Of a stretch of DNA of 64,000 nt, positions 2,096 to 62,740 are shown piece after piece. A program made the translations under genes and the position numbers. The notes beneath the pieces are model-generated. The model was not told the origin of the DNA. It did not search any database and saw nothing but the letters and a program-made list of their open reading frames with translations. The number at the start of each line of letters is the position of its first letter. Position 1 is the stretch's first letter. Source of the stretch: Pollenia angustigena (taxonomy: Eukaryota; Arthropoda; Insecta; Diptera; Polleniidae); contig OV884059.1 in assembly GCA_930367215.1 (NCBI GenBank), positions 221,704,803 through 221,768,802 on the forward strand, read 5' to 3'.

Positions 2096-3932
2096 TGGGA
2101 AAGTTTATTTTATTGATATTGATATGATACAAAAGTTTGTTTTTTTCACTAATTAAAAATTATTTTAATTCATAGTTAATAAAAAGTTAAAATACTTTTG
2201 CTTATTAAAAAATTTTTCATTTGCCAAAAAAAAAAATTGATAATAATGCGAAAATACTTGACATCCCAACTAATAAAAAGTTTAAATTAAAGAGCATACA
2301 ACGAAAAACACTATTTGAACAAACAACTTTGAAAAACTATGAGAAAGAATCTTGTACTGGTAATTAGGATTTCTTATCTAGCGGAGTGAGACAAGAATCA
2401 AATTTTCTAAGTTTTTCACTTAACTCTTAATGGACAAACGCAAATACAATAAAAGAATTCACTCATTTGCACTCACAAATCAAAAATCGGTTGTTTTTGT
2501 TGAATCGTTTGAAGGCTGGCTAAAAAAAATAAGCATCATGAAAAGTATACAAGAGATTTAAAGACAAGTCATCAACAACAAAAGGCTTAAAAATGTGAAA
2601 AATCACAACTTTTTTTTCGTTTTTTTTTTTTAACTGACAGTTCTATTGTTTTACTGTCTTTCAACATTTTATTTTTGTTTTTCTTCTTTAGTTTCCATCA
2701 TCATGGCAATTTTCTTTTACTTTTTTTAATTTTACTTTTTTTATTGTCTATTTTTAGTTGAAGTTGTCGTTTGCGTTTATAGAATTTCTGATGTCCTTAA
2801 CGAGTCACGTGATCAGCAAGACTGATAACATTCAAAGATTAGGTTGGCGGTGATGAAGAAACAACAATAACAAAAAAAAACGGTTGATAATATAAAATTG
2901 TTTTGCCAAAGTTGTACGTTAGAAAAAAAAAGTGTCGTATTAAATCAGAGTTTTAGAAGAAACTTTAGACAAATTTAAATTGTTTTTTTTTCTAAATTTT
3001 TTTTCTAATTTATAAAACTTTTGGTCAGTTTGCTAATAAGGGAAACTTATTTAAAACTTATTTTGATTTAATAACCTGCTACTCATGCGATATGGTTGCA
3101 GAAAATTGGCAAATATTAATAAAGCCAAACATATCATGATTAAATCTGTCTATAACATGTCTAAAATCAAATAAATATTCAGTTTTTTTTATAAAATTTT
3201 ACTGTCAAAAATTAACCCAATATTTAGTTAAAACAATTAAATATTCAGGTATTTTATTAAATTCAGAAATTTTCGTTTACTCCACAAAAGAGCCGAATTC
3301 CTAAAACAATCAGACAGACACCTGTCCGCTTGGTTTTCTTATAAGCGAGATAGGGAGTATTATTATTTACTTACCCCGTTACACACGTTTATTTTACTTT
3401 TGTTGTACTGACCACGTTGTTTACAGAAGAACTCTCAATTATAAGACACCAGCAGCATGACCGATATGGCTTCGCAATTATTTTACTTTAAACATTTGAT
3501 GTATTTTACTAAATTATTTAAACAAATAGAAAATGGGAATTGCTTATACAAAACAAGCAATTCATTTTTTATAAATAAGTAAAACTTTATTTTTGGTAGT
3601 TAAATTATATAAAATAACTGAATGTTCGTTTGTTTTTACGGAATCCGTGGTTGAATTTTTGACAGTTAAAATTATATGAACTTTTCGTTACTTTAAATTA
3701 CATTTTCATTTAATTTAACATAAAGAAGAATTTAACTCAATCAACTGACAATATTAACTGCAACTGAAAATCCGTATTAATATGCACTTAGTTTTTTGAA
3801 TAACTGTTAGAATCAGTTAAAAATAGATTTGCTTGGAATTTTAAATGTTTATTTGTTTAAAAATGACTGAACGGAATATTTCTTAAATAAACTACAGACC
3901 GTTACTGTAATAATATCGTGAGTGTGTGTTTG
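2096..3932. other. AT-rich intergenic DNA
   Basis: No ORF with family motifs. A weak inverted repeat lies at about 2329-2417. Many A/T homopolymers. Otherwise nothing recognised. Confidence 0.6.
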
Positions 3933-7219: not shown

Positions 7220-7961
7220 AGATTCGTGTTTTCTAGTCCCAAATTATCTATTAACCACCAAGTTTTATAAAGTTACTCGAAAAAAAATCGCTGGAAAAAA
7301 AAGTGTCGCCGTAACTAAAAAGAAATTTTTTGATGGACAATTTTTTTCAATTTTCTCTGCTGTTTAAGAAACCAAGTGTCCGCCATTATGAATCAAAAGA
7401 AAAACTTTCCACATTTTAGTTCTAACTTAGAAATATATAATCTTTTTTAGAGGCCCGAAACGTATTTATTATTTTTTATAATTTAGTACTTTAGATTAAA
7501 AGCGATAAATATTTTTCTGTACGACAAAATTATACTATTTTCTTTGTACTGTGTTTAAAAATTAACGTTCTTAAGAAATTACCTTCAAGAAAATCTCTAC
7601 CGTTATTAGACATTATTATATAGCCATAAGAAAATGCAGGTTGTTTCTGCAAAAATATGAAAATCGTCAATATTTACTTTCAATTTAAAACAAAACTGAG
7701 GGCACCGTTTTTTAATAAGTTTTTTTTTAAAGAATATATGCTCCGTTGACCTTAATACTGATGTAAAAAAATTACCACATTTAAGTGTCATTTTTGTGCT
7801 TTTTCCAGAACACCAAATTATACTTGTTTTTTATATTTTTGTATGAAATATTTAAATTATGAAATTTGAATTTGAGTTGTTTGTATCATTGATGATTTAA
7901 GATTTCAAAATACTTCTTTAATAAAAACACTTTAAAATACTTTAATAACACAGTACAACAG
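7220..7961. other. AT-rich DNA without recognisable feature
   Basis: A/T-rich. A 61-codon minus-strand frame (7606-7791) has no recognisable motif. Nothing assigned. Confidence 0.6.
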
Positions 7962-7966
7962 ACAAT

Positions 7967-9858
7967 CTGGGGGGTGAGAAATTCCAAGTCAGGGTGATGG
8001 TACTAGGTCAGTGTAGTAAAACCCTCAAAGGGTTTGGCGTTCGTATGTGTCAGTTTTTTTTTTATGACATTTTAAATTTTTTCCTTATCTTGATGATTTT
8101 TCGCTTAATTGTAGCATTTTGGCAAAAACGTAGTTTAACATAACTCGAGAACCACTTGTCCGATTTTGATGAAACAAATTTAGAAAAATTAAGAATTACA
8201 ATTTCTCTAATCTGTTTCTATACCGTTTTCCTTTATGTGCAACACTTTCGAAGTTAAAAATGAATGTATGAAGGGAAAAAAGTATTTTTTGCCTAAAAAT
8301 TTAAATATTTTTTTTTTTTTTAAATTCATAAAAAATCCAAAATTGAAAAAGTGCCAAAACTAATTACTTTCGCGTAAAGTCACATAACTCATGAGCAAAA
8401 AAAGGCATAGATCATGAAAATCAATGCACGCGTTTCTCATTTATTCACAATTAGGTAAATGTATGAATTTCAAAAATTTGCTCCAGATATGCACATTATT
8501 TGGAGAAAACATTGACACTCACAAGCCGAACTCTCATATTTTTCTACTGTACTAAAAGAGAAATATTGATGTGGCAACACTGGTTCTGTAATGTTCACAC
8601 AAAACATGCATTGTCATTATACTTCTTCTCTTTCTCACACTGGTTCTGTGATTTTTGTCATTCAACAAGTGCCGACGAACGCGAACAGTAAAAGTGATTT
8701 TTCTCCAGTTTTTTTAAAGTGAACAAAAGAGAACAGAATATGGAACTGTGCAAGGCAGATATAAATAGCTTTTGCTACTGCTGTGGTCAATATGTCTCAA
8801 CACATAAAAAAAGGGGAAATTTCAGTACTGATTTTGTTCAAACATACGAGATGTACTTCAACCAAAATGTTATAGTGAACGAAAATTGGGTACCAAATAT
8901 AGTGTGTAAAAGCTGCTACAACCGTCTAATGGATTGGAAAAAAAAAAGACGTGAAAGTATGCCATTCGGTATGCCAATGACTTGGACTAATCCTGGCGAA
9001 AGTCACAATCCATTGAATTGCTATGCATGTGCGAATAAAGGAGCCGCAAAAAAGATAAGAAAATCGTATAATTACGTTGGTGTTGCAAGTGCCGTAACAC
9101 TATTGCCTCATTCGGACCACATTCCTGTGCCAAAAGCTTCTAGCCCAGATATTTTCTCTTCTACGACTGCTCCGACATATCATGCACGTGATGATCCCCC
9201 ATATGAGCCATCAGTATCCAATGAGCCAATTTTAAAATGTTTACTTAATTTTTTTAGTAGTTTATGGCCAGAAGTCTGGAGTTATTGGGGAAAATTTATA
9301 AAAAAGGCGATAAATGACACTTTTTGAATATAAACAAATATCAATATTCTTGTCAAAATGGGATACCTTCACTTAATTGTAAATAAAAGCGGAACGCGTT
9401 AATCGATTTCTATGATCTATGTCGCATAGTGTTTATAGGTTATGTGACTTTACATGAAATTAATAACACTTGATCCTTTTTTCCGTTTTGGATTTTTTAT
9501 GAATTTAAAAAAAAAATTTTTAATTTTTAGGCAAAAAAATATTTTTTTTTCTCTACAAATTTATTTTTACCGGCAAAACTGTTGATTATAAAGAAAAACG
9601 TTATATGAACGGATTAAAGAAATTGTAATTCTAAATTTTTTTCAGTTTGTTTTAGCAAAATCGGACAAGTGGTTCTCGAGTTATGTTAAACTACATTTTT
9701 GCCAAAATGTTACAACTAAGCGAAAAAACATCAAGATAAGGAAAAAATTTAAAATGTCATAAAAAAAAATACTGACACATACGAACGCCAAACCCTTTGA
9801 GGGTTTTACTGTACTGACCTAGTACCATCACCCTGACTTGGAATTTCTCACCCCCCAG
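7967..9858. mobile_element. 1.9-kb long-inverted-repeat element carrying one cysteine-rich ORF
   Basis: The outer ends are CTGGGGGGTGAGAAATTCC and its complement. The arms stay recognisably complementary for about 470 bp each (7967-8440 versus 9385-9858), including AGTCAGGGTGATGGTACTAG and AAACCCTCAAAGGGTTTGGC. The flanks carry direct repeats: ACAAT at 7962-7966 and 9859-9863, extendable to CAGACAAT if the terminal CAG is counted as flank. Duplication length is therefore 5-8 bp and the superfamily is open. Between the arms lies essentially only the ORF 8740-9327. No DDE transposase is visible, so mobilisation in trans is likely unless the ORF itself takes part. Confidence 0.85.
8740..9327 (+). 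CDS. cysteine-rich 195-aa protein of the long-inverted-repeat element
   Basis: Intact frame of 195 codons from the first ATG at 8740 (the frame is open upstream, but only to non-ATG codons). The N-terminal half holds three zinc-binding-like pairs: C12-x2-C15 (with an extra C14), C56-x2-C59 and C94-x2-C97, with H89 before the last. Conserved-looking blocks are KSCYNRLMDWKKKRRESMPF and FGMPMTWTNP...HNPLNCYAC. The middle (residues 110-165) is Ser/Pro-rich and low complexity. The C-terminus, around SSLWPEVWSYWGKFI, is aromatic. I recall similar cysteine/FG-x-PM-x-W proteins among unnamed arthropod hypotheticals, but this needs a search. A nucleic-acid-binding role is only an inference. It is the sole gene between the two inverted arms, and an uninterrupted frame amid relics suggests recent activity or selection. 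Confidence 0.7.
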   Translation: MELCKADINSFCYCCGQYVSTHKKRGNFSTDFVQTYEMYFNQNVIVNENWVPNIVCKSCYNRLMDWKKKRRESMPFGMPMTWTNPGESHNPLNCYACANKGAAKKIRKSYNYVGVASAVTLLPHSDHIPVPKASSPDIFSSTTAPTYHARDDPPYEPSVSNEPILKCLLNFFSSLWPEVWSYWGKFIKKAINDTF

Positions 9859-9863
9859 ACAAT

Positions 9864-10394
9864 AATCCCAAAAATGTTCCATAGTGTAATTATTTGTTAT
9901 TTTTGAATATTAAATAAATATCAAATTTTTTTCTTCATGTATATTTTCCTTAAAAGGACATACATACATTCATGTATAAGAAATTCATATCCTTCAGTTT
10001 GTTTGGCACTAAACTCTTTTATATTTAAATTTATATAATTTAAATGGAATAAAGCATAGTGATGTTATATTTTTGTGATCTTTTAAACAAAAGAATATTT
10101 TAAAATACAAAAATCCTTGCTAGAATTTTTAAAAAATTAAGAACATCAATTTTAACAGTATATTAAGATAGATTTGGTAATTTTCAATAATTCAACATAA
10201 AAAGTGTTGCCGAATAAAATTTAAAAAAAAAATATATATGGGAAGTACAAGAATCCTTTGACGGACTTTTTTCAAAACTTGAAATTTTGTTTATTATTAT
10301 CATATATCCATGCAAAATATTATTAGTCTGGGTCAGCTCCTTCTATTTTTGCACAATTTTGCTCTACAGAAAATGTATTGTGCGCCATCTAACA
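9864..10394. other. AT-rich DNA without recognisable feature
   Basis: Nothing recognised besides A/T-rich low-complexity sequence. Confidence 0.6.
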
Positions 10395-19530: not shown

Positions 19531-21386
19531 TAGAGCGACTCACCAAAAAAGTGCTCTATGTACCCTCCTAAAAATGAACCTTGGACTTTTTTAAGATGAC
19601 ATTTTGAGTATTTCGGCTCCAGTTTTGACCTCTCGTGAGCTGGACCAGTTTGAAAAAGGGTCTATTTTTGTATGTTTTGATAATTTAAGAATCTGTTTCC
19701 TTACCAACATATAAAAATTGGATATGGTAAGAAAGGGTTTTTTAAGCCGCATCCAACTGTATATACAATTTATCCAAGAACGATTATCCATGTCCTCTTT
19801 TTTAAGGATTTTCTGTAAAAAAAACGTGTTTTGAATTTTTTGTTCGGGGTTGTTTGTAATAAAAGTGCCAAATTAAAACATTTTAATCTTTAGTCGATTT
19901 AATTAAATACGTGTCTCAGCTTTTTTTGAAATTCGTGCTAGTTCGCGTTTTGGCAAAAATGCAATGGGGTGGTAACCCTTCGTTTTAAATAGGGCAATAT
20001 GGGTATCAAATTTTATCTTTTGGCAAGTATATCATCTTTGTATGTAAATAATCTAGATTTTTGCAAAATAGATGCATTTTACACGGTGCTCTGGAATATA
20101 AATAAATGCAATTTTGTAGTAACTCTAATATGATAGCGGATTTAGTTTCTAGATCATGCATGGATGAAAATAGGACTAAAGAAAGAAAAAAAGAAATGAT
20201 CCAAGACTTTTTGGCGGCATATTTTTTCGCAAAATAAAAAAAAAATTCAAGTCGTGAATCATTTCTTTTTTTCTTTCTTTAGTCCTATTTTCATCCATGC
20301 ATGATCTAGAAACTAAATCCGCTATCATATTAGAGTTACTACAAAATTGCATTTATTTATATTCCAGAGCACCGTGTAAAATGCATCTATTTTGCAAAAA
20401 TCTAGATTATTTACATACAAAGATGATATACTTGTCAAAAGATAAAATTTGATACCCATATTGCCCTATTTAACCCTTATGTGTGTGGAAAAAAAACACC
20501 TTCTATAGGGTGGATAGGTACCTGGGTACCTTCATGGAAATTGTATGAGAAATCTAATTTTTTGTCTTGTATTGTACAAACAATCGATGGTTAATGAAAT
20601 AATATTAGAATTTTACTCTGGTTTTCTCCTTTTCATATATTTTTTAAAATCCTACACCCAAAAAAAAAAAATTTGTAATATAAAACGTATACAGGTACCC
20701 AGGTACCTATTCACCCTATTAAGGGTGCAAAAAGCAAATTGGTATGCCACGCCCCCCCAAACTCATATTGTATATAAACACCTATGAAAATATAATAATA
20801 ACAAAAAGTTAGGAGTTCTCATGAAATTGTAGAATTGTAGACTAAAATCTTATATAAAAAATTTCGATTTGAAAACGCAATAGGTACACAGGTACCTGTC
20901 CACACACATAAGGGTTAAAACGACGGGTTACCACCCCATTGCATTTTTGCCAAAACGCGAACTAGCACGAATTTCAAAAAAAGCTAAGACACGTTTTTAA
21001 TTAAATCGACTAAAGATTAAAATGTGTTAATTTGGCACTTTTATTACAAACAACCCCGAACAAAAAATTCAAAAACCGTTTTTTTTTTACAGAAAATCCT
21101 TAAAAAAATGGACATGGATGATCGTCCTTGGACAAATTGTATATACAGTTGGATGCACCTTAAAAACCCTTTTTTACCATAACCAATTTGTATATGTTGG
21201 TAGGGAAACAGATTCTTAAATTAACAAAACATACAAAAATATACCCTTTTTCAAACTGGTCCAGCTCACGAGAGGTCAAAGCTGGAGCCGAAATATTCAA
21301 AATGTCATCTTAAAAAAGTCCAAGGTTCATTTTTAGGAGGGTACATCGAGCACGAATTTTGCTTCCATACAACTTGAGTCGCTCTA
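19531..21386. mobile_element. hAT-type giant palindrome (foldback) element
   Basis: The ends are TAGAGCGACTCA and its complement-like TGAGTCGCTCTA. Flanks GTTTACAG (19523-19530) and GTATACAG (21387-21394) are an 8-bp duplication with one mismatch. Almost the whole element is two inverted arms: left 19531 to ~20220, right ~20245 to 21386 with the 441-bp insertion 20474-20914 removed. The arms are >90% similar by eye; only ~25 bp of spacer remains. No ORF. The transcript would form a ~690-bp hairpin. Confidence 0.85.
20474..20914. mobile_element. piggyBac-type MITE with TTAA duplication
   Basis: The ends CCCTTATGTGTGTGG and CCACACACATAAGGG are perfect 15-bp inverted repeats starting with CCC, flanked by TTAA on both sides (20470-20473, 20915-20918). 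TTAA duplications and CCC ends are diagnostic of piggyBac. Inner inverted motifs (GGTACCTGGGTACCT and AGGTACCCAGGTACC) form a second layer. The other arm of the surrounding palindrome shows the empty site with a single TTAA. Non-coding; mobilised in trans. Confidence 0.9.
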
Positions 21387-25524: not shown

Positions 25525-26402
25525 GGGTGATTTTTTAAGAGCTATAGGAAAGTTAAAAAAAAAACACATAAAATTCAGAAAAATGCATGAAATCTTTATT
25601 TGAATCGATAGTACGGTCCATATAATTTAATGTTTGAAGATTATTTCATGCAAAAGTTGACCGTGACTGCGCCTCAAGTTGTCCATCCGCTTAGTCCAAT
25701 TTTGGCATACTCTTTCGAACAAATGTTCGAATTTCGAATAAATGTTGTCTTCCAATGCGTCAATTGAAGCGGGCATGTGTGTATAGACATGAGCTTTAAC
25801 ATAGCCCTACAAAAAATAGTCTAAAGGCGTTAAATCGCACGATCTAGGCGGCCAATTGACCGGTCCCGAACGTGTAATAAAATGTTCACCGAACTCGCCT
25901 CTCAATAAATCCATTATTAAGCATGCTGTGTGGCATGTGGCACCGTCTTTTTGAAACAACATGTCATGCAAGTCAAGCTCTTGCATTTTGGGCAAAAAAA
26001 AGTTGGATATCATTTCTAGGTAGCGCTCACCATTCACAGTTACGTTACGATTCGCATCATCTTTGAAGAAGTACGGTCCAATGATGCCACCAGCCCATAA
26101 ACCGCACCAAACTGTGACTTTTTCTGGATGCATTGGTAGCTCTTGCAATGCTTCTGGCTGATCTTCACTCCATAATCGACAATTCTGCTTATTAACGTAC
26201 CCTTTGAGCCAAAAATGAGCTTCGTCAGAGCACGCATTTTGATAATAAAATTCAATAATTTGCAAGCGTTTTTCGTTTGTAAGACGATTCATGGTTAAAT
26301 TATAAACCAAACTAAAGATGTTTGACAGTGAAACAAAACACGAAACGTGCGTCAGCTGTTTAAACCAGTGTTTCCAAAAAGATAGTAGCTAAAATATCAC
26401 CC
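25525..26402 (-). mobile_element. internally deleted mariner-like element
   Basis: The ends GGGTGATTTTTTAAGAGCTAT (25525, left) and the complement of GGGTGATATTTTAGCTACTAT (right, ending 26402) form diverged ~20-bp terminal repeats. The interior is the minus-strand transposase pseudogene 25807-26310. A clean TA duplication is not visible at either end. At 878 bp it is shorter than a ~1.3-kb full element. Confidence 0.75.
25807..26310 (-). pseudogene. mariner-like transposase with in-frame internal deletion
   Basis: A 167-codon open frame. Residues 7-28 (RLTNEKRLQIIEFYYQNACS) are the start of the N-terminal helix-turn-helix. They are followed directly by DEAHFWLKGYVNKQNCRLWS, so the rest of the DNA-binding domain and the linker are missing, joined in frame at CS|DEAHF. 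The catalytic core is preserved: D of DEAHFW, D of FQKDGATCHTA and D of PPRSCDLTPLDYF, the last two separated by 36 residues. The frame ends at PLDYFL, before the usual C-terminal tail. It cannot bind its ends normally. The open frame may be a recent deletion derivative. Confidence 0.85.
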
Positions 26403-33249: not shown

Positions 33250-33822
33250 AAAAAACTCACAAAAAGACACTTTTTACACAAAGAGTCACTTTTTAAACAA
33301 AAAGTAAATTTTTACACAAAACGAAAATAATTATTACACAAAACGACACTTTTTAAACAAAAATCAGTTTTTACACAAAAATTCACTTTTTACACAAAAA
33401 AGTCACTCTTTACACAAGCAGTCACTTTTTACACAAAAAGTAAACTTTTTCACAAAAAGGAAATTATTACACAAACGACACTTTTTACACAAAAAAGTAA
33501 TTTTTACACAAAAAGTCACTTTTAACCAAAAAAAAGTTCATTTTACACAAAAAAGTCACTTTTTACAAAAAAAAGTCACTTTTTACACAAAAAATTCACT
33601 CTTTTCACAAAAAGTCACTTTTTACACAAAAAAGTCACTTTTTACACAAAAAAAGTCACTATGTACACAAACAGTCACTTTTTACACAAAAACTAAATTT
33701 TTTCACAAAAAGGAAATTATTACACAAACGACACTTTTCACACAAAAAGACACTTTTTACACATAAAAGTAATATATTACACAAAAAGTCACTTTTTATA
33801 CAAACAGTCACTTTTTACAATA
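33250..33822. repeat. minisatellite, ~19-21-bp unit
   Basis: About 28 imperfect copies of AAAAAGTCACTTTTTACAC. The unit is itself partly palindromic (AAAAAGT.ACTTTTT). Some copies share variant forms in order (TAAATTTTT.CACAAA, GGAAATTATTACACAAACG), so a higher-order repeat of several units was duplicated (about 33400-33500 and 33660-33760). Confidence 0.85.
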
Positions 33823-34780: not shown

Positions 34781-36206
34781 AAAAACAAGTTAGAGTGCTA
34801 TATTCGGCTGTGCCGAATCTTTGATACCCTCCACCGACAGTTCGAATGTTTAAGGAGTAATATCTGTATGATGTCTATTTGTTATTATTATCTTATACTG
34901 TGACGAGTTGTTATTAATTATGGTTTTAGGTGTACTAAACTGTTTTCCGGGAGTTGGGTTTCTATGGGGCCTAGTGTAAATTATGTACCGATCTTCACGA
35001 AATTTCACAGTGTTATTTCTAGTCCTTTAAAACTGTGACGTACCAATTTCTGTTATGATAGCATTATTAATTATGGTTTTAGGTGTACTAAACCGGTTTC
35101 CGGGAGTAGGGTTTCTATGGGGCCTAGGGTAAATTATGTACCGATCTTAACGAAATTTCACAGTAAAATTTATAGTCCTTTTTAACTGTGATGAGCCAAA
35201 ATTTGTTATAATTGCATTATTTTTTACGGTTTTAGGCGTACTAAACTGTTTTCCGGTAGAAGAGTTTATATGGGCGTTAAGGTAAATTGTGGACCGATCG
35301 TCACGAAATTTCACAGTGTTATTTCTAGTCCTAAAAAAATGTGACGTACCAAATTTTGTTACGCTAGCGTTACTTTTTACGTTTTTAGGCGTACTAAGTT
35401 GTTTTCCGGGAGTAAAGTTTATATGGGGCCTATGGTAAATTATGAACCGATCTTCACGAAATTTCAAAGTTTTATTTTTAGTTCTATAAAACTTTGATGT
35501 ACTAAATTTTGTTATGATAGCATTATTTTTTGCGTTTTTAGGCGTACTAAGTTGTTTTCCGGAAGTAGGTTTTATATGGGGCCTATGGTAAATTATGGAC
35601 CGATCTTCACGAAACTTAACAGTTTAATTTCTAGTCCTATGTAACTGTGACTTGCCAAAATTTGTAATGATAGAATCGTTAGTTAGGGTTTTAGGCTTAA
35701 TATACTGTTTTCCGGGAGTAGGGCTTATATGGGGCCTAGGGTAAATTATTGACGAATCTTCACGAAATTTCACATCGTGATTTCCAGTTGAATAAAACGA
35801 ATTGTTGCGAAATCTTATATCATTCTGTGCATTTTTCCACCATTTATGTTAGTTTTTGTAACAAAATTATCAATTTTTTTTAGGTGGTGGTTTCACATTT
35901 TGATTCATAGCTCAGATCCTATTGAACCGATTTTGCTGAATTTCAATCCCAAACTGCTTAGGATAACTAAAAGCAATTTGACACCAAGTTTGTTGATTTC
36001 TTTTGAGTTTTTCGAAAGTGAGCGTGTTTTCAACAGACGGACAGACGGACAGACAGACGGACATGGCTAAATCGACTTAAAATTACTCAAGGACCCAGAA
36101 TATATATACTTTATAGGGTCTGAGATGAATAGTAAAAAAGTTTCACACGGAATGACAAACTGAATATACCCTCTTCACAACTAATTGTGGTGGAGGGTAT
36201 AAAAAT
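34781..36206 (-). mobile_element. DINE-1/mini-me (Helentron-associated) element, copy A
   Basis: Starts AACAAGTTAGAGTGC and has the subterminal inverted pair TACCCTCCACC (about 34826) and GGTGGAGGGTATAAAA (about 36189). The GTCY microsatellite (GACGGACAGACGG) is at 36037-36061. It is followed by the dipteran DINE core, complement of CCCTATAAAGTATATATATT. The middle holds about five tandem copies of a ~155-160-bp unit (GTTTTCCGGGAGTAGGGTTT...TTCACGAAATTTCACAGT). Non-coding. Strand is given relative to the usual Drosophila DINE orientation. Confidence 0.9.
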
Positions 36207-37153: not shown

Positions 37154-40100
37154 TAGGGTATTCATGCAATCGACCTTTTGCTTTAATCGGTTAATCGCTC
37201 GATTAATTAACCGAGGTTTTGGTTTAATCGGTTTATAATTGGTTAATTTTGTTTTTAATCGGTTAACCGATTAATAAAGTTTTTTTTATAAATTAAGTAA
37301 TTTCAGTATATAAAAATGCATTAATTGCTTATTTCTTGGAGTTCATAAGTAAATACGAAAACAATAACAGGTAACAAACGTCACAATTCTTGAACTAAAA
37401 CGAGCATGTAAATAAAAAACAATTCACAAATATGTATGTAATATTCATTTTTTAATTAATGCACAAGGTGTGGTATCAAGTCATATCGTCATAATATCCT
37501 AAATAAAATTTAAGATTGTTTAAAGTAAATATTGTTGTATTTCAAACAAAATAAAAATTGTAATGCTGTGTTCATTGATTCGTCATGACTGTATAGTAGA
37601 AATCTAAATTATAAGCGGTATCTTACAACAGTTATATCGTTGGCTTAATATGCAAACCTGCTAACTCACTTTCAGCACATTTTACAGGAGAGAAAAATAA
37701 TATTTGAAGCTTGATAGAAAATAAAATTACAGTCAGTTTTACACACTTCAAGACTTATGGTGTTTTCTTTTCTAAAAAATAATAATGCATTATAGTTGTG
37801 TAATATATTTATTAGGTTACACGAACCCTTACAAAGTGATACATTTTTCTAAATTACAATGGAATAATATAATAGCTACGTTTTACACTCAACACTAATG
37901 TGTATTTAGCGTGTTAAATATTGAATGCAAAGTTTGTACTAAAAGCGATATTCACCACGTTTGTAGCAATTTTCAACATTTAATTTTCTTACAATTCCAA
38001 TAAGCGTTAACAGCACTGATTTTCAATAATTAATGTCAGCCGTTGTTAAAAATTTTGCGACAATAAAAATATAATTATTAAATAAAAGTAAAACAAACGA
38101 AAAACAAAAAGTTTTTATATCCATCACAATATAACTACAAATCACAATATAACGTAAATTGTCCGCAAACACAAGAAAAACAAGTTAGAGTGCTATATTC
38201 GGCTGTGCCGAATCTTTGATACCCTCCACCGACAGTTCGAATGTTTAAGGAGTAATATCTGTATGATGTTATTATTATCTTAAACTGTGACGATTTGTTA
38301 TTATTTATGGATTTAGGCGACTAAACTGTTTTCCGGTAGTAGGGTTTATATGGGGCCTAGGGTAAATTATGGACCGATCTTCACGAAATTTCACAGTCTT
38401 TTTCCCAGTTCTATAAAACTTTGATGTACCAAATTTTGTTATGATAGCATTATTTTTTACGGATTTAGGCGTACTAAACTGTTTTCCAGGAGTAGGGTTT
38501 ATATGGGGCCCAGGGTAAATTATGGACCGATCTTCACGAAATTACACAGTTTTATTTCTTGTCCTATAAAACTTTGATGTACCAAATTTTGTTATGATAG
38601 CATTATTTTTTACGGATTTAGGCGTACTAAGTTGTTTTCCGGGAGTAAAGTTTATATGGGGCCTATGGTAAATTATGAACCGATCTTCACGAAATTTCAA
38701 AGATTTTTTTTAGTTCTATAAAACTTTGATGTACCAAATTTTGTTATGATAGCATTATTTTTTACGTTTTTAGGCGTACTAAGTTGTTTTCCGGAAGTAG
38801 GTTTTATATGGGGCCTATGGTAAATTATGGACCGATCTTCACGAAACTTAACAGTTTAATTTCTCGTCCTATGTAACTGTGACTTGCCAAAATTTGTAAT
38901 GATAGCATTGTTAGTTAGGGTTTTAGGCTTAATATACTGTTTTCCGGGAGTAGGGCTTATATGGGGCCTAGGGTAAATTATGGACGGATCTTCACGAAAT
39001 TTCACAGCGTGATTTCCAGTTGAATAAAACGAATTGTTGCGAAATCTTATATCATTCTGTGCATTTTTCCACCATTTATGTAAGTTTTTGTAACAAAATT
39101 ATCAATTTTTTTTAGGTGGTGGTTCCACATTTAGATTCATAGCTCAGATCCTATTGAACCGATTTTGCTGAATTTCAATCCCAAACTGCTTAGGATAACT
39201 ACAAGCAATTGACACCAAGTTTGTTGATTTCTTTTGAGTTTTTCGAAAGTGAGCGTGTTTTCAACAGACGGACAGATGGACAGACAGACGGACATGGCTA
39301 AATCGACTTAAAATTACTCAAGGACCCAGAATATATATACTTTATAGGGTCTGAGATGAATAGTAAAAAAGTTTCACACGGAATGACAAACTGAATATAC
39401 CCTCTTCACAACTAATTGTGGTGGAGGGTATAAAAATACTTGCTTGCATAAAAAAGTACTTTACGCAGATGCAAAAAAGGGTATTATCTCACACTCAGTT
39501 ATAACTGCGGGTAAGAAATGGAACAAATTTGCCATTTATTGTTGCAACATGTTTAGAAAGGAAAACGACAACTTCTCACATTTTTGCATATATTTTTAGA
39601 ATGGAACGAAAACCCGCACGAATGGCAGCATATATGCAACATTATTGTCAGAAAAGAAAACACCATTAAATAGAAGAAAAACTACATGCTGGTCGACGAG
39701 GCGTATCTTTCTCTACCACACGGCATAAAAATCTCAATTTATATAAAAAGTGGACTTAGCCGGTTTCATATTAAGCCGACGACGATATATATTTCTGTAA
39801 TTATTTTAAGACATAAGGCTTGATATTTACTACCATGTGAATCCCCCAAATATTTACGTATGTATACAAAATAAAACTGCAATAATTTTATTAGTTATTT
39901 CAATAGTTAAAGGACATCTTATAAAATTATCATTTAGAAAAGTAATTTGGTTTAAATGTTTAGGATAAAAGCGATTCTTTTCATTAGTTTTGGCAAAAGT
40001 TTACTTGGAAAAAATTCTTTCACTTATCGTAGATGAATATCTAATTTCTTAGCCCTTTTCCAGGATTATGCCATTAGAGTTTTTTTAAATTTAATTTAAA

Positions 40101-42946: not shown

Positions 42947-45745
42947 TTATGCATAGTACGTCATTAACAATTTTTTGAATTTCATAGCGTTGCTGGTGAG
43001 TTGAATATTTGTAGGAATATGGTTCCAGAGATATATTGTGTAAACAAAAAATTGGTTAAAAGATGCGCTGTTTCTATATGTAAAGGTGATAATGCTATTA
43101 TTTCTTGCAGATGCTGTAAATGTTAGCTTACTGTATAGGTAGCTGGGTTCCTTAGTAATAATAATTTTGTGTAGAAAAAGTAAATTCTTAAACTTCAGAT
43201 AGTTATCAAAAGTCATTCCAAGGATTCGTCTGGAGTATGTTGTTACACTCGCAAACCTGGGTATAGCAAAAATGTAACGTATAATGTTATTAAACGTAGT
43301 ATTAAGCTTTCGTTTGTCATGAGCATTGCATCCGGCGAAAACTTCAGAAGAATAAGTAAGTTTTGGTATTATGTATGTTCTAGCTATCATCATTCTTATC
43401 TTCGGTGGTGTGAACGGTTGACTATACCATAGACTTCTGAGCATACCATATACTCCGCCGCACGTTTGGCTAATGTGGTCAGACCATGTAAGTGTTCTAT
43501 TGAAAACGACACCCAGATTTCTAGCCGAGTTGACCAACTCAATTTTCTTTCCACCAAGATATAAGCCTATGTCATCAGCGATTTTCATGCTCTTCTTGGA
43601 AATGATTAGGTATTTCGATTTTTTTGGATTTAGGCATAGGCCATTTGCCGTGGCCCAGTTATAAATCTTGTTGAGGTCGTAGTTAAGATTTCCAACTTTA
43701 TGACTTAACGATGTTTTGGAGCACTCAATGTATAGCTGGACATCATCGGCATACATATGCATGTTTGAGTGCTTGATCTGGGAAGGAAGGTCGTTGGCAT
43801 ACATTGAGTATAGAAGCGGACCAAGTATTGACCCCTGAGGAACACCTCTCGGCATGGGCAAAGGGCTGGATACAGTTCCATTGTTTGCTACAACTTGCCA
43901 TCTGTCTGAAAGATATGACGCAACTAGTTTCGATGCGGTGTCAGAAAAGTTAAACATTTTCAATAGTTTCATGGTCAGCATTTGGTGATCTACCGTATCG
44001 AAGGCCTTTGAGTGGTCAAGTAAAACCAGAAAGGTAATTTTACTTTCAACCATGCTCTTTCGAATATTTTCGCTTACTTCAGATAAGGCTGTAGTGCAGC
44101 TATGGCCTCGTCTGAAACCAGATTGGCGATCGGTAAGGAGATTGTGGTCAAGAGTGTACTTATAAATCTGGTTATATACGAGACGCTCAAAAACCTTTGA
44201 CAGGTATGGAAGGATGGATATTGGGCGATATTCCTTATCATTTTTGGGCACTGGTATAACTTTTGCAAGTTTCCAATCAGTTGGATAAGTGCTGGTTGTA
44301 ACAATAGAGTTGAATATGTGGTTAATATAATGAATTATATATGGTAATATTAGTTTTACAAAGCGTGGATGAATATCGTCAAGACCAACTGCATTGGATT
44401 TTACAGCTCGGAACCCTTCAACAGTATCGCAAATGGTGAAGCATTGAAATCCAAATTTGTTTGCGGAAATACGAGAAGAGTTTTGGTTGTAGAAATCAAG
44501 TTGAACCGGTGGTTTAGGAATGTTTGAAAAAGTGAAATTTAGTTTATCAACATCTATAACATTTGTAGCAGTACTTCTTTGAGAACTAACTATGCCTATA
44601 TCGCGAATTTGTTTCCATTTTTGTTTAGTGGTCACCGCAGTGCGAAATTTTTCCCCGTAGTAGGTTAATTTATCATGTCTTATTTTTGATACAACAGCTC
44701 TTCTAGCCACTCGAAAAATATTTTTTAGATCGTTAGTTTTGTAGCGTTTCCAGCGCCTATATAGTTCATCCCGACGTTCAATCAATAATTTTGTTTCTGA
44801 AGTGAACCATGGAGTTCTCCTGCCTTTAACTTTTTTGGTTTTCAGAGCTACATATTTGTTAAACAAATTAAGAATTTCACGATTTAGAAAATTTACTTTC
44901 TCACTAGTTGAAGTTATAAAATAAATTTCATCAAAATTTTAATTGCTAAGGTCTTCTTCCAGCGATATAAAATTTATATTTTTAAAATCACGGTAAGTGA
45001 ATTCTTCAGTTTGTTGTACGACTTTAAAATCGTAATTCAGAAATATAAGATCGTGTTTTGAAAAAATCGGTACTGCTAACTGATAATAGTGCATAATTTT
45101 ACGGTTTTCACCTACAAAGAAAAGATCCAGCAAGGTGGCACTAGTTGAAGTGAAATGTGTCGGTCTGGAGTTATTTGCTGAGAAAAGATTAAGAGCCATC
45201 ATAGCAGAGCGAATGCTCGATCCTAAGCTTGTGAGCAGGTTTGAATTGAAGTCGCCAGATATAATAATATTTGAATAGCTTACAGTTCGAGATTCCAATT
45301 CAGCAACAAGCGAATTTAATTTAATATACTTGTTTGGTCTATATACGCATCCCAGCAACAATTTGTCATGGCAGGAGTTTAGTTCAACTAATATGAACTC
45401 AACATAATTTTCCGCGTTAAAATCGCATACAAGCTTACATGAGACATTGTTTTTTATATATATCGCCACTCCCCCAGCATTACCTTTACGATCCGATCTA
45501 TATAGTTTGTACCCATTTAATCTAACAAGATTGTCATTGAGTGCGTCGTTAAACCACGTTTCGGAGACACATACAGCGTCTACACCAGAATCTTCAAAGA
45601 GGTAACGAAACTCATCAATTTTGCAATGAAGTCTCTGGGCATTAATGTGACAAACTTTGAAACCTTGATTTTGATTTGTTAAAATTCGAATCATATTATA
45701 GTTGCCTTCTCTGGAACCAAGAAGATCAGTTGATAGGTCTGTCAT
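42947..45745 (-). pseudogene. LINE ORF2 (endonuclease-reverse transcriptase), one in-frame stop
   Basis: Non-LTR retrotransposon ORF2, probably of the CR1/Jockey superfamily. First ATG at 45745 (the frame is open upstream). Part 1 (45745-44939) is an APE-type endonuclease with HINAQRL, SETWF, the NAGGVAIYI block, YRPN, SGDFN and S-K-HD near its end. A single TAA at 44939-44941 interrupts it. The same frame then continues (NFDEIYFITS...) into part 2, ending at 42947. RT motifs in part 2 are YRPISILPYLSKVFE, SGFRRGHSC, LLDHSKAFDTVDH (motif A), GVPQGSILGP, MYADDVQLY (catalytic motif C), NPKKSKY and LGVVFNRTLTWSDH. The C-terminus is LWNHIPTNIQL. Apart from the stop the ~930-codon frame looks intact, so the copy is young. 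Confidence 0.9.
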
Positions 45746-45936
45746 CACCCCTAAAGGCAACGCAACAACATTCAAAAAAGTAAAAGTACAAAGTATTCTT
45801 CGTTAAATAGTGGTTAAAGGATAATATATAATATATAGATAATGTAGAATTCTGTAAGTTAATTTTAGCTGTGAGCAGGTTATGCTTATATGCGTTATCA
45901 TAGTTTATAAAAGAATGAGAACGGTAGAACATTATT

Positions 45937-60694: not shown

Positions 60695-61378
60695 AGATAG
60701 GGCTGGCTCAGGCTACTATCGGGGTCAGCAGGTGGCGGATCGCTGAATGGCCTGCAGATACGTAGGTTCGCTGCGAATATCTAATAAGCAGTCCCCGACC
60801 AAGAGCGGCAGGGTATGAGGGTACACCATAAAAAGGTGTTAATGCCCGTAGAAGACTATGCGACGTGGCGAGTGGGTACCGCCACTAAATAGGTATCCTC
60901 CATGGGGGTGCACTCAAGAGAGGTGCAGTTGGGAGAGTGACGCCTCCGTGGTTCCCCCAGTCATTCTTTCCGCCGAAGGGCATTAAGATCAAGTCCAGTA
61001 CGGTCTTAATTATGGTATTTCTGGAAAACTGGCACGATTTGACATAAACCTGGGCTGACAGCTGTGGTATTCTGGAACCTGAGTATGCATAAGTGGAATT
61101 CTGCAAAAATGGCTTCCCGGCTAATGCTACAACTGCCTCCGTCCCACCAAAACCTAGCAAGTCTCAAAGTACTTTCGAGGTTCGTCGCCGTTAAGTTGGT
61201 GCTTGCAGGATCGGATGTTTGTTCCCGACTTACACGGATCTGGCTCTGAACAGAAGGTTTCATAAGAACCTTTTGTCAACCCTCGCATGGCCTCACTGCT
61301 TGCAAAGACAACCATGGGATCTTGACGTGACTGCATAATCGAATCGGAGATAGAGGCTTTGAGTTGGGACCCAATAAC
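60695..61378 (+). mobile_element. 5' UTR of an R1-clade LINE
   Basis: GC-richer sequence from AGATAGGGCTGGCTCAGG to the first ATG of ORF1, ~680 bp. The boundary is the abrupt end of the ACAT repeats. Short frames on both strands here are not recognised as genes. As in other R1-like elements the internal promoter should lie in this segment (inferred). The element continues beyond the window. Confidence 0.75.
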
Positions 61379-62740
61379 ATGAATTTTGAAAACAAACAAC
61401 AAGGAGATATCGTGAAGATGAGAGATGAAAGGGGCGTAGAGAGCCCATTCGCAAGGAGTTCTGTGATAATGAGATCACCAACAGCAACTGTGGCAAGTGA
61501 GACATCTAGCAGCTGCGAAAATCCAAGTAGTAAAAATATGGACAAGTTAGGTGGTAAAATTAAGAGACTAATTGATTTTCTTAAAGGGAAAACTAACGTG
61601 CATAAGGAGATTGTTACACTTTCTCGTGAGATAGAGGCGCTGTTTATGCAAGTGTCGGAAGAGAATAATAGTGCGACCGCAAAAAGTGACGAAACCGTAC
61701 TTATTAGCACGCATACCCAAACAGAGGAGGCATTATGGCAAAAACTACCGCAAATAGCTGCTCCCAAACGGAAGAGAGATATCACAACCCTCAGCCCAAA
61801 AGAGAACAAGCCAAAGAAGAAAAAGGATACTATCCAAAAGATAACTGGTAATGGTGTAGAAAACTGTACAATGGGCAATACTGTTTTGACAGACACCATA
61901 GCCGAAATATCGCAAGGTGAAAGGACCAACTCTGATTGGGTCAAAGTTCGCCCAAGGGCTAAAAATAGAAAGAAACCTGTTAAGACAAGGAATAGAAGGA
62001 AAACGGGCCGCCCAGATGCACTTGTAATCCAGACATGTGGAGAAACCTTGTACGCCGACATACTAAAGAAAGTAAAAATAGATCCTAAGTTGGAAATTCT
62101 TGGCCAGAATGTAAATAATATAAGGAAAACTGCGAGAGGTGAACTACTTCTGGAACTTAATAAGCCTGCGCATCAGAGTACATGTGAGTTTAGGCACACA
62201 ATAGAAGAAGTCCTTGGCACGACGGCAGAAGTTCGGGCGTTGACTCATGAAATAGTTCTCGAAATAAGAGATATTGATGAGGTTACAGATAGAGAAGACG
62301 TTTACGAGGCGTTAGTGAACCTATCTGAAGAGTTCAAAACACTGCAGCTTTCTGCAATAAAATCTTTGAGGAGAGCTTACGGAGGTACACAAACGGCCAC
62401 CATTAGCCTTAGTACTGGATTAGCAAACAGACTACTGGAAGTCGCTAAAATCCGCATCGGATGGGTCCGGTGCCGAATACGAGAAAAAATAAGCCCAAGA
62501 AGATGCTTTAAATGTCTAGACTTTGGTCATCCAACTTCTAATTGCAGAAGCCAATTTGATCATTCAGGCAAATGCCTACGGTGTGGAGGAACTGGACACA
62601 AAATAAAAACGTGTAAGGAAAGCCCCGTTTGTATGCTTTGTAGTAGTGCTGCCTCTAGCACCAAGAGCGACCATGTAACAGGATGCGCAATTTGTCCATA
62701 CTATCAAAAAGCGCTTCAGTCCCTTAAAACTGGAAAATGA
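61379..62740 (+). CDS. R1-clade LINE ORF1 (Gag-like nucleic-acid-binding protein)
   Basis: 453 codons from the first ATG at 61379. The N-terminal half is charged and lysine-rich (residues ~130-230, with basic runs such as PKRKR and NKPKKKK). A conserved-looking middle follows (residues ~230-370: KVKIDPKLEILGQNVNNIRK, RGELLLELNK, RRAYGGTQTATISL). The C-terminus has three zinc knuckles at about residues 376-436: two of the form C-x2-C-x4-H-x4-C (CFKCLDFGHPTSNC, CLRCGGTGHKIKTC) and a third C-x2-C-x10-H-x3-C. Three knuckles are typical of R1/LOA-type ORF1 proteins, which package the LINE RNA. The stop TGA overlaps the ORF2 start (ATGA), suggesting coupled re-initiation. The frame is intact, so the copy is probably young. 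Confidence 0.9.
   Translation: MNFENKQQGDIVKMRDERGVESPFARSSVIMRSPTATVASETSSSCENPSSKNMDKLGGKIKRLIDFLKGKTNVHKEIVTLSREIEALFMQVSEENNSATAKSDETVLISTHTQTEEALWQKLPQIAAPKRKRDITTLSPKENKPKKKKDTIQKITGNGVENCTMGNTVLTDTIAEISQGERTNSDWVKVRPRAKNRKKPVKTRNRRKTGRPDALVIQTCGETLYADILKKVKIDPKLEILGQNVNNIRKTARGELLLELNKPAHQSTCEFRHTIEEVLGTTAEVRALTHEIVLEIRDIDEVTDREDVYEALVNLSEEFKTLQLSAIKSLRRAYGGTQTATISLSTGLANRLLEVAKIRIGWVRCRIREKISPRRCFKCLDFGHPTSNCRSQFDHSGKCLRCGGTGHKIKTCKESPVCMLCSSAASSTKSDHVTGCAICPYYQKALQSLKTGK

Follow-up and report, generated by a model that had tools for sequence, protein, structure and literature searches.

We examined a 64,000-nucleotide stretch of the genome of the fly Pollenia angustigena (contig OV884059.1, positions 221,704,803 to 221,768,802 of the forward strand; hereafter the window), in which a mobile element with two long inverted arms encloses a single cysteine-rich open reading frame (ORF). 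The parts of this element are arranged as follows, in window coordinates.

7946..7948, unstranded: left target-site duplication TAA, preceded by A
7949..7966, plus strand: left tip CACAGTACAACAGACAAT, 18 bp outside the arm, near-constant across copies at different sites
7967..8464, plus strand: left inverted arm, 498 bp
8465..8739, plus strand: putative 5' leader of the transposase gene with its presumed promoter, assigned by position only; common to longer copies
8740..9327, plus strand: truncated transposase, a 195-codon open frame
8773..9147, plus strand: ZAD-like zinc domain, residues 12 to about 136, with three C-x2-C pairs
9234..9235, unstranded: junction of an internal deletion, at a 2-bp microhomology; the longer copy L017 has ~1.45 kb that is missing here
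9236..9327, plus strand: about 30 codons out of former 3' noncoding DNA, from mapping onto L017
9363..9858, minus strand: right inverted arm, 496 bp
9859..9886, minus strand: right tip CACTATGGAACATTTTTGGGATTATTGT (read on the minus strand), 28 bp outside the arm
9887..9889, unstranded: right target-site duplication TAA, followed by T

An earlier note, made from the letters of the window, had described complementary arms of ~470 bp with a terminal sequence at their ends and a flanking direct repeat of 5-8 bp, and had bounded the element at 7967..9858. The arms are real: they are identical at 423 of 493 aligned bases with four gaps, their likeness is highest in the outer 98 bp (97% complementary), and the terminal sequence CTGGGGGGTGAG, found a single time on each strand of the window, marks the two arm ends. 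The boundaries had to be moved, since the bases just outside the arms are near-constant among copies with resolved ends (CAGCCAAT on one side, ACAATAATCCC on the other) and are therefore part of the element. Similarity among copies extends out to CACAGTAC at the 5' end and, read on the minus strand, to CACTATGG at the 3' end, which places the true tips at 7949 (CACAGTAC...) and 9886 (...CCATAGTG), with a total length of 1,938 bp and TAA on either flank. The proposed direct repeat (CAGACAAT / ACAAT) is present, yet it lies inside the element; a 5- or 8-bp duplication is ruled out by the copy-constant bases outside the arms together with the 3-bp TAA flanks. We also rejected a repeated target as the source of the flanks: the stretch shared outside the arms measures 18 bp on the left and ~29-36 bp on the right (54 bp in one copy). 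A blastn comparison of the element with the window returned no second copy, only short AT-rich matches, and scans of the window for Rfam families and tRNA genes gave no hits.

We then searched the species' own genome (1.37 Gb, 31 contigs) with the arm-to-arm element and found many further copies; the best 40 of 3,033 candidates were scored, so that all counts are lower bounds. After removal of repeat fetches of one locus, the set used to define the ends held 41 rows with the 5' half from 39 loci (the split copy L054 contributing two rows). Both tips were resolved in 24 of these rows; the other 17 were excluded with one or both ends missing or unresolved, among them L005, whose left tip was unresolved. 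The same 3-bp flank stood on both sides in 22 of the 24 two-ended copies, the left flank was TAA or TTA (TWA) in 20, and insertion had occurred between A and T in 22. In three copies (L014, L023 and L025) the stretch between the arms is reversed with respect to the tips, an arrangement that recombination between the nearly identical outer parts of the arms would be expected to produce. At L016 (C1:132937500-132947000), two copies of the 5' half lie 4.17 kb apart in one orientation with an identical left flank over the 42 bases compared; this pair is a local duplication.

The frame between the arms starts with ATG and runs uninterrupted for 195 codons, and it encodes three C-x2-C pairs (C12/C15, C56/C59 and C94/C97) and the block FGMPMTW, all as the earlier note had reported. 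In a Markov model of the 898-bp interior, none of 2,000 simulated sequences held a frame of at least 195 codons. The zinc domain gave a weak Pfam match to zf-AD (ZAD, PF07776; E 0.0021, 18.7 bits, under the gathering cut-off of 28), and four of the 72 relatives in a family alignment, A2, matched zf-AD at E <= 0.1. In fold, too, the domain may resemble the ZAD of insect C2H2 proteins. It differs from it in scoring below the curated cut-off and in continuing with a third C-x2-C pair and a PFG.PM.W block.

A protein search with the window ORF alone produced 11 candidates, none at E <= 0.001, evidently because it has too few exact words in common with the relatives found later. We therefore relied on an alignment, A1, that combined the window ORF with two sequences of a widespread animal family of like cysteine layout; searching with A1 returned 3,272 proteins at E <= 0.001 among 3,671 candidates. 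When the window ORF was compared by phmmer with the 120 database proteins listed from this search, all 120 were reported at the default threshold, with values from 1e-30 (the best) to 9.3e-26 among the matches listed. Identity to the family is ~27-39%, from residues 3-11 to 131-170 in the best 20 BLASTP rows. The three C-x2-C cysteine pairs are invariant or nearly so across the family alignment, and the window ORF stays alignable with the family, linker included, up to about residue 165 and diverges afterwards. A further search for longer relatives gave 910 matches at E <= 0.001 from 1,968 candidates; of the 120 listed, most measure ~550-567 aa, and those named come from a turtle, lamprey, firefly, frog, caecilian, moth and pseudoscorpion. 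In the separate listing of 120 proteins from the A1 search, those with names are labelled uncharacterized, hypothetical or unnamed, and no precomputed Pfam domain is attached to any of the 120. Scans of viral contigs and of genome contigs confirmed no DNA of these relatives.

The earlier note saw no known transposase fold in this frame, and the catalytic domain is indeed absent from the window copy. Searches of PDB sequences with the window ORF, with the relative P0224 and with the A2 profile retrieved no transposase, and no Pfam transposase matched the 72 A2 relatives at E <= 0.1. The DDE transposase motifs C(2)C, LH and H(4)H are present in A2, and a Foldseek comparison recovered the RAG1/Transib catalytic fold; HzTransib was not among the 50 Foldseek matches listed and appeared only in the VIA second look. 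Two database entries stand apart: P0187 (Rhinatrema bivittatum) joins the family domain to a zinc-finger protein with a precomputed PF01352, and in P0233 (Cordylochernes scorpioides), which is outside A2, the remainder of the protein holds a transposase domain of the mariner type. Each is a fusion or a misannotation.

The part missing from the window copy is found in longer copies of the same genome. Among 35 places that contain the 5' half without running through, 28 end at query position 1269 (window 9235), and 10 separate rows begin at query 1268; this 2-base overlap is a microhomology, which indicates that the short form is a deletion. A 150-bp query across the breakpoint, for which the best 40 of 836 candidates were scored (41 rows), was spanned at >=99% by two rows only, the window copy and C3:249478213, with a third at 87%; 33 rows break at 75/76 and five begin at 69 or 70. 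Three other copies (L003, L004 and L005) align over nearly the full length of the element with other junctions. The longer copies L008 (refetched as L011), L012, L013 and L015-L019 align to P0224 up to residue 492-522, mostly at 36-48% identity by segment and with a frame change near residue 390-415. For L017, a gene model with two exons and a 67-nt GT-AG intron encodes 517 aa, identical to P0224 at 216 of 502 positions, and retains D, D, C(2)C, LH, H(4)H and E. Residues 171-195 of the window ORF map to L017 positions 3292-3366, past the modelled coding end near 2944; these last ~25 residues match DNA near the right arm of the longer copies and are thus read from noncoding DNA.

Together, these results suggest that the window element is very probably a 1.94-kb internally deleted, non-autonomous copy of a ~3.3-kb Chapaev3-type transposon that moves by cut and paste. 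The window element shows the expected tips, a TWA duplication of 3 bp, long inverted arms and the deletion junction, longer relatives in the same genome encode the part that it lacks, and its zinc domain is common to an animal-wide transposase family. The suggestion in the earlier note of a non-autonomous transposon is thereby borne out in the form of an internally deleted DNA transposon. Its description as a possible undescribed element is unsupported as far as the kind of element goes, as the hallmarks fit the Chapaev3 transposons published in PMC4079192. That account gives Chapaev3 TWA duplications with insertion between A and T, and the Chapaev group generally CAC and GTG tips and the motifs C(2)C, LH and H(4)H. 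The window copy has the corresponding tips 5'-CAC and GTG-3' (CACAGTAC and CACTATGG) and TAA/TAA flanks, and the catalytic motifs lost from it are retained in L017. EnSpm, Mirage, Chapaev and Transib are described as united by C(2)C, H(3-4)H and duplications of 2-5 bp (PMC12730594). Chapaev and Chapaev3 have also been assigned to the Transib superfamily and credited with a zinc domain, Chapa, at the N-terminus (PMC4411706), to which the N-terminal zinc-type domain found here may correspond.

Several observations weigh against this assignment. Matching 3-bp flanks are absent in two of the 24 two-ended copies, L009 (ATA/TTA) and L045, and four left flanks are not TWA. The L017 model does not include the last ~40 residues of P0224. 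A two-exon model of >480 aa was obtained in two of the five copies tried (L017 and L012), the one for L012 requiring a 115-nt intron and yielding 501 aa; no such model came from L013, L015 or L018. The Chapaev3 hallmarks taken from PMC4079192 include neither long arms nor unequal tips, and the name Chapaev3, which we still consider very likely correct, rests on such hallmarks and not on a tree.

We considered several other explanations. The earlier note had proposed an accessory or captured gene inside transposon arms or a novel mobilisation protein, and the compact layout, with little besides one frame between the arms, fits such a gene. In longer copies of the same element, however, the N-terminal frame runs on into a DDE transposase, and hundreds of longer relatives are known, as counted above. 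The ORF is the N-terminal domain of the family's own transposase after an internal deletion; the longer copies refute the captured-gene or novel-protein explanation, which we regard as highly improbable. A Transib proper or a RAG-like transposon would share the catalytic fold, and the tips CACAGTA and CACTATG resemble the recombination signal sequence (RSS) heptamer and Transib tips. Nevertheless, Transib and RAG-like elements duplicate 5 bp (PMC7204232), against 3 bp in 22 of 24 copies here, and neither phmmer with P0224 nor hmmsearch with the family profile hit a chain of RAG1 or Transib among PDB sequences, with E values as high as 10 allowed. By hhalign, one RAG1 core sequence scored a probability of 0.2% (E 0.29) and the RAG1 N-terminal part 3.3% (E 0.013). 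Significant sequence similarity to RAG1 is dismissed on these results, and membership in either group is very unlikely. The RAG1 N-terminal region itself has a weak zf-AD match (E 0.0029), which is a lead only. A foldback element of the P superfamily such as Galileo would also combine long arms with an N-terminal zinc DNA-binding domain. Duplications in the P superfamily and Galileo are about 8 bp; the ends and the 3-bp duplication rule this candidate out and leave it a negligible probability. Finally, a miniature inverted-repeat transposable element (MITE), short, homogeneous and amplified, is generally <600 bp by the size criterion in PMC4079192. We rejected this class for an element of 1,938 bp whose junction occurs in two copies among the best 40 of 836 candidates.

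The intact frame had been taken as a sign of recent spread or selection. The first part stands, as the copy looks young and an intact frame is expected for that reason. Selection on the frame was dismissed: 25 copies give a dN/dS of 1.11, and a set of 42 rows (L051 and L054 split into two rows each) gives 0.91. Across these 42 rows, the first 165 codons are intact in 18, broken in 12 and partial in 12, an outcome close to the one (a ratio near 1 with frequent stops) that the earlier note had named as speaking against its own proposal. In addition, all seven differences between the window copy and the majority base change an amino acid, one of them (P121L) at a nearly invariant family position. 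At 7.75% neutral substitution, 17% of simulated frames stay free of stops; frame intactness alone is weak evidence. From sequence comparison, the window protein appears to bear no sign of selection.

It is conceivable that the short element was kept as a repressor, its zinc domain binding the arms and blocking the full-length transposase. The KP deletion derivative is said to repress the P element of Drosophila in that way, and KP is likewise an internal deletion that spares the N-terminal DNA-binding part. However, KP belongs to another transposase superfamily, and here there is neither a sign of selection nor wide spread of the window junction. The dN/dS of 0.91-1.11, the seven non-synonymous differences including P121L and the confinement of the junction to two copies among the candidates scored all argue against a repressor. 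In the sister with the same junction, moreover, four inserted bases shift the frame; at its left end the outermost 25 bp do not align. Overall, we consider a repressor role unlikely.

For the internally deleted Chapaev3-like copy, we infer the following history. The longer copies would supply transposase in trans, which would bind the arms and tips, cut at CAC/GTG and insert at A-TWA-T. The deletion may have arisen by joining at the 2-bp microhomology, for example during repair of an excision gap. The short form seems to have moved at least once after the deletion because one junction is found at two sites with different flanks. The 195-aa protein, if made at all, would be a by-product capable of DNA binding at most and not of catalysing transposition. 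A second Chapaev3-like family (G000) was found in the same genome: with the best 78 of 6,577 candidates scored, 69 of the 78 places match P0224 residues 64-546 at 52% and contain a 508-aa open frame (507 in one) with near-identical scores. Two copies, L059 (C4:233577900-233581700) and L060 (C4:237046400-237050200), are 99.9% identical over 2.6 kb, and the 629-bp arms of one copy are 99.5% alike. This points to a very recent burst of the second family, and the near-identity of its copies suggests that a Chapaev3-like transposase is probably active in the species.

The window contains other repetitive features. Two frames of a retrotransposon lacking long terminal repeats lie at 42947-45775 on the minus strand (RVT_1, E 3.7e-34; Exo_endo_phos, E 9.6e-10). 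A 458-aa frame at 61364-62740 (plus strand) shows gag-like CCHC-type cysteine motifs by eye, and what looks by eye like a mariner-type transposase relic lies at 25807-26310 (minus strand); neither has a Pfam match at E <= 0.001. Large nested inverted repeats occupy 19551-21353, with arms of 172-225 nt that are 95-99% complementary. A tandem array at 33258-33819 consists of ~29 copies of the partly palindromic 19-bp unit CACAAAAAGTCACTTTTTA, and two arrays of a similar 153-bp satellite-like unit (34911-35788 and 38298-39007) are ~2.5 kb apart.

The two ends of the element are unequally spaced. In the window family, 18 bp separate the 5' tip from its arm, against 28 bp at the 3' end. All 40 arm ends in one scan were of one of these two types (22 short, 18 long), and each of the 24 two-ended copies pairs a short end with a long one; 21 of them share one orientation, and in three the interior is inverted between the arms. 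The spacing is 19 and 29 bp in the second family and 25 and 40 bp in a third, represented by one copy (L061) with a TTA duplication; apart from the three inverted copies, the longer spacer is 3' of the gene in all three families. A limited literature search found no report of unequal tip spacing for Chapaev3. We tentatively suggest, as a possible but doubtful reading, that Chapaev3 ends are unequal in the manner of 12/23-signals and that, with a RAG1-like fold and a zinc domain, asymmetric pairing extends outside Transib and RAG. Against it, the length difference is not constant (10, 10 and 15 bp), the 15 bp of the third family arguing against a strict helical-turn rule, and a fourth family (L062) gave no left end under a strict A-TWA-CAC rule. 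The short/long pairing within a family may be plain descent, and all three families come from one genome, the third as a single copy. Two copies of the second family are flanked by TAA/TAA and TAT/TAT, one of which is not TWA.

The locus itself is ordinary: one cysteine-rich orphan frame is explained and its boundaries are corrected. More broadly, the 3,272 animal proteins or fragments retrieved with A1 can be interpreted as transposases of Chapaev3 type whose fold is RAG1/Transib-like, though many may already have names in Repbase. If unequal spacing is true of Chapaev3 families elsewhere, far more transposons could be used to test how the 12/23 asymmetry of V(D)J recombination originated.

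Among known systems, the Chapaev3 elements Merrow, Garfield and Conan, as described in PMC4079192, share with the window family the CAC/GTG tips, the A-TWA-T insertion site, the C(2)C, LH and H(4)H motifs, a transposase of ~556 aa and the occurrence of internal-deletion derivatives. Garfield of the silkworm is 2,289 bp long and encodes its 556-aa transposase in two exons, an arrangement found also in Merrow, while most other Chapaev3 transposases appear to be single-exon (PMC4079192); the L017 model has two exons as well. Unlike these, the window family has arms of ~500 bp (629 bp in the second family) and tips of unequal length. Transib, RAG1 and RAG-like systems differ from it in the size of the duplication and in showing no significant RAG1 sequence similarity to it. 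Asymmetric ends are described for RAG-like and some Transib elements (PMC9435367). The window family resembles these, and also V(D)J signals with their 12- and 23-spacers, in that spacers of unequal length lie between the heptamer-like CAC tips and the arms.
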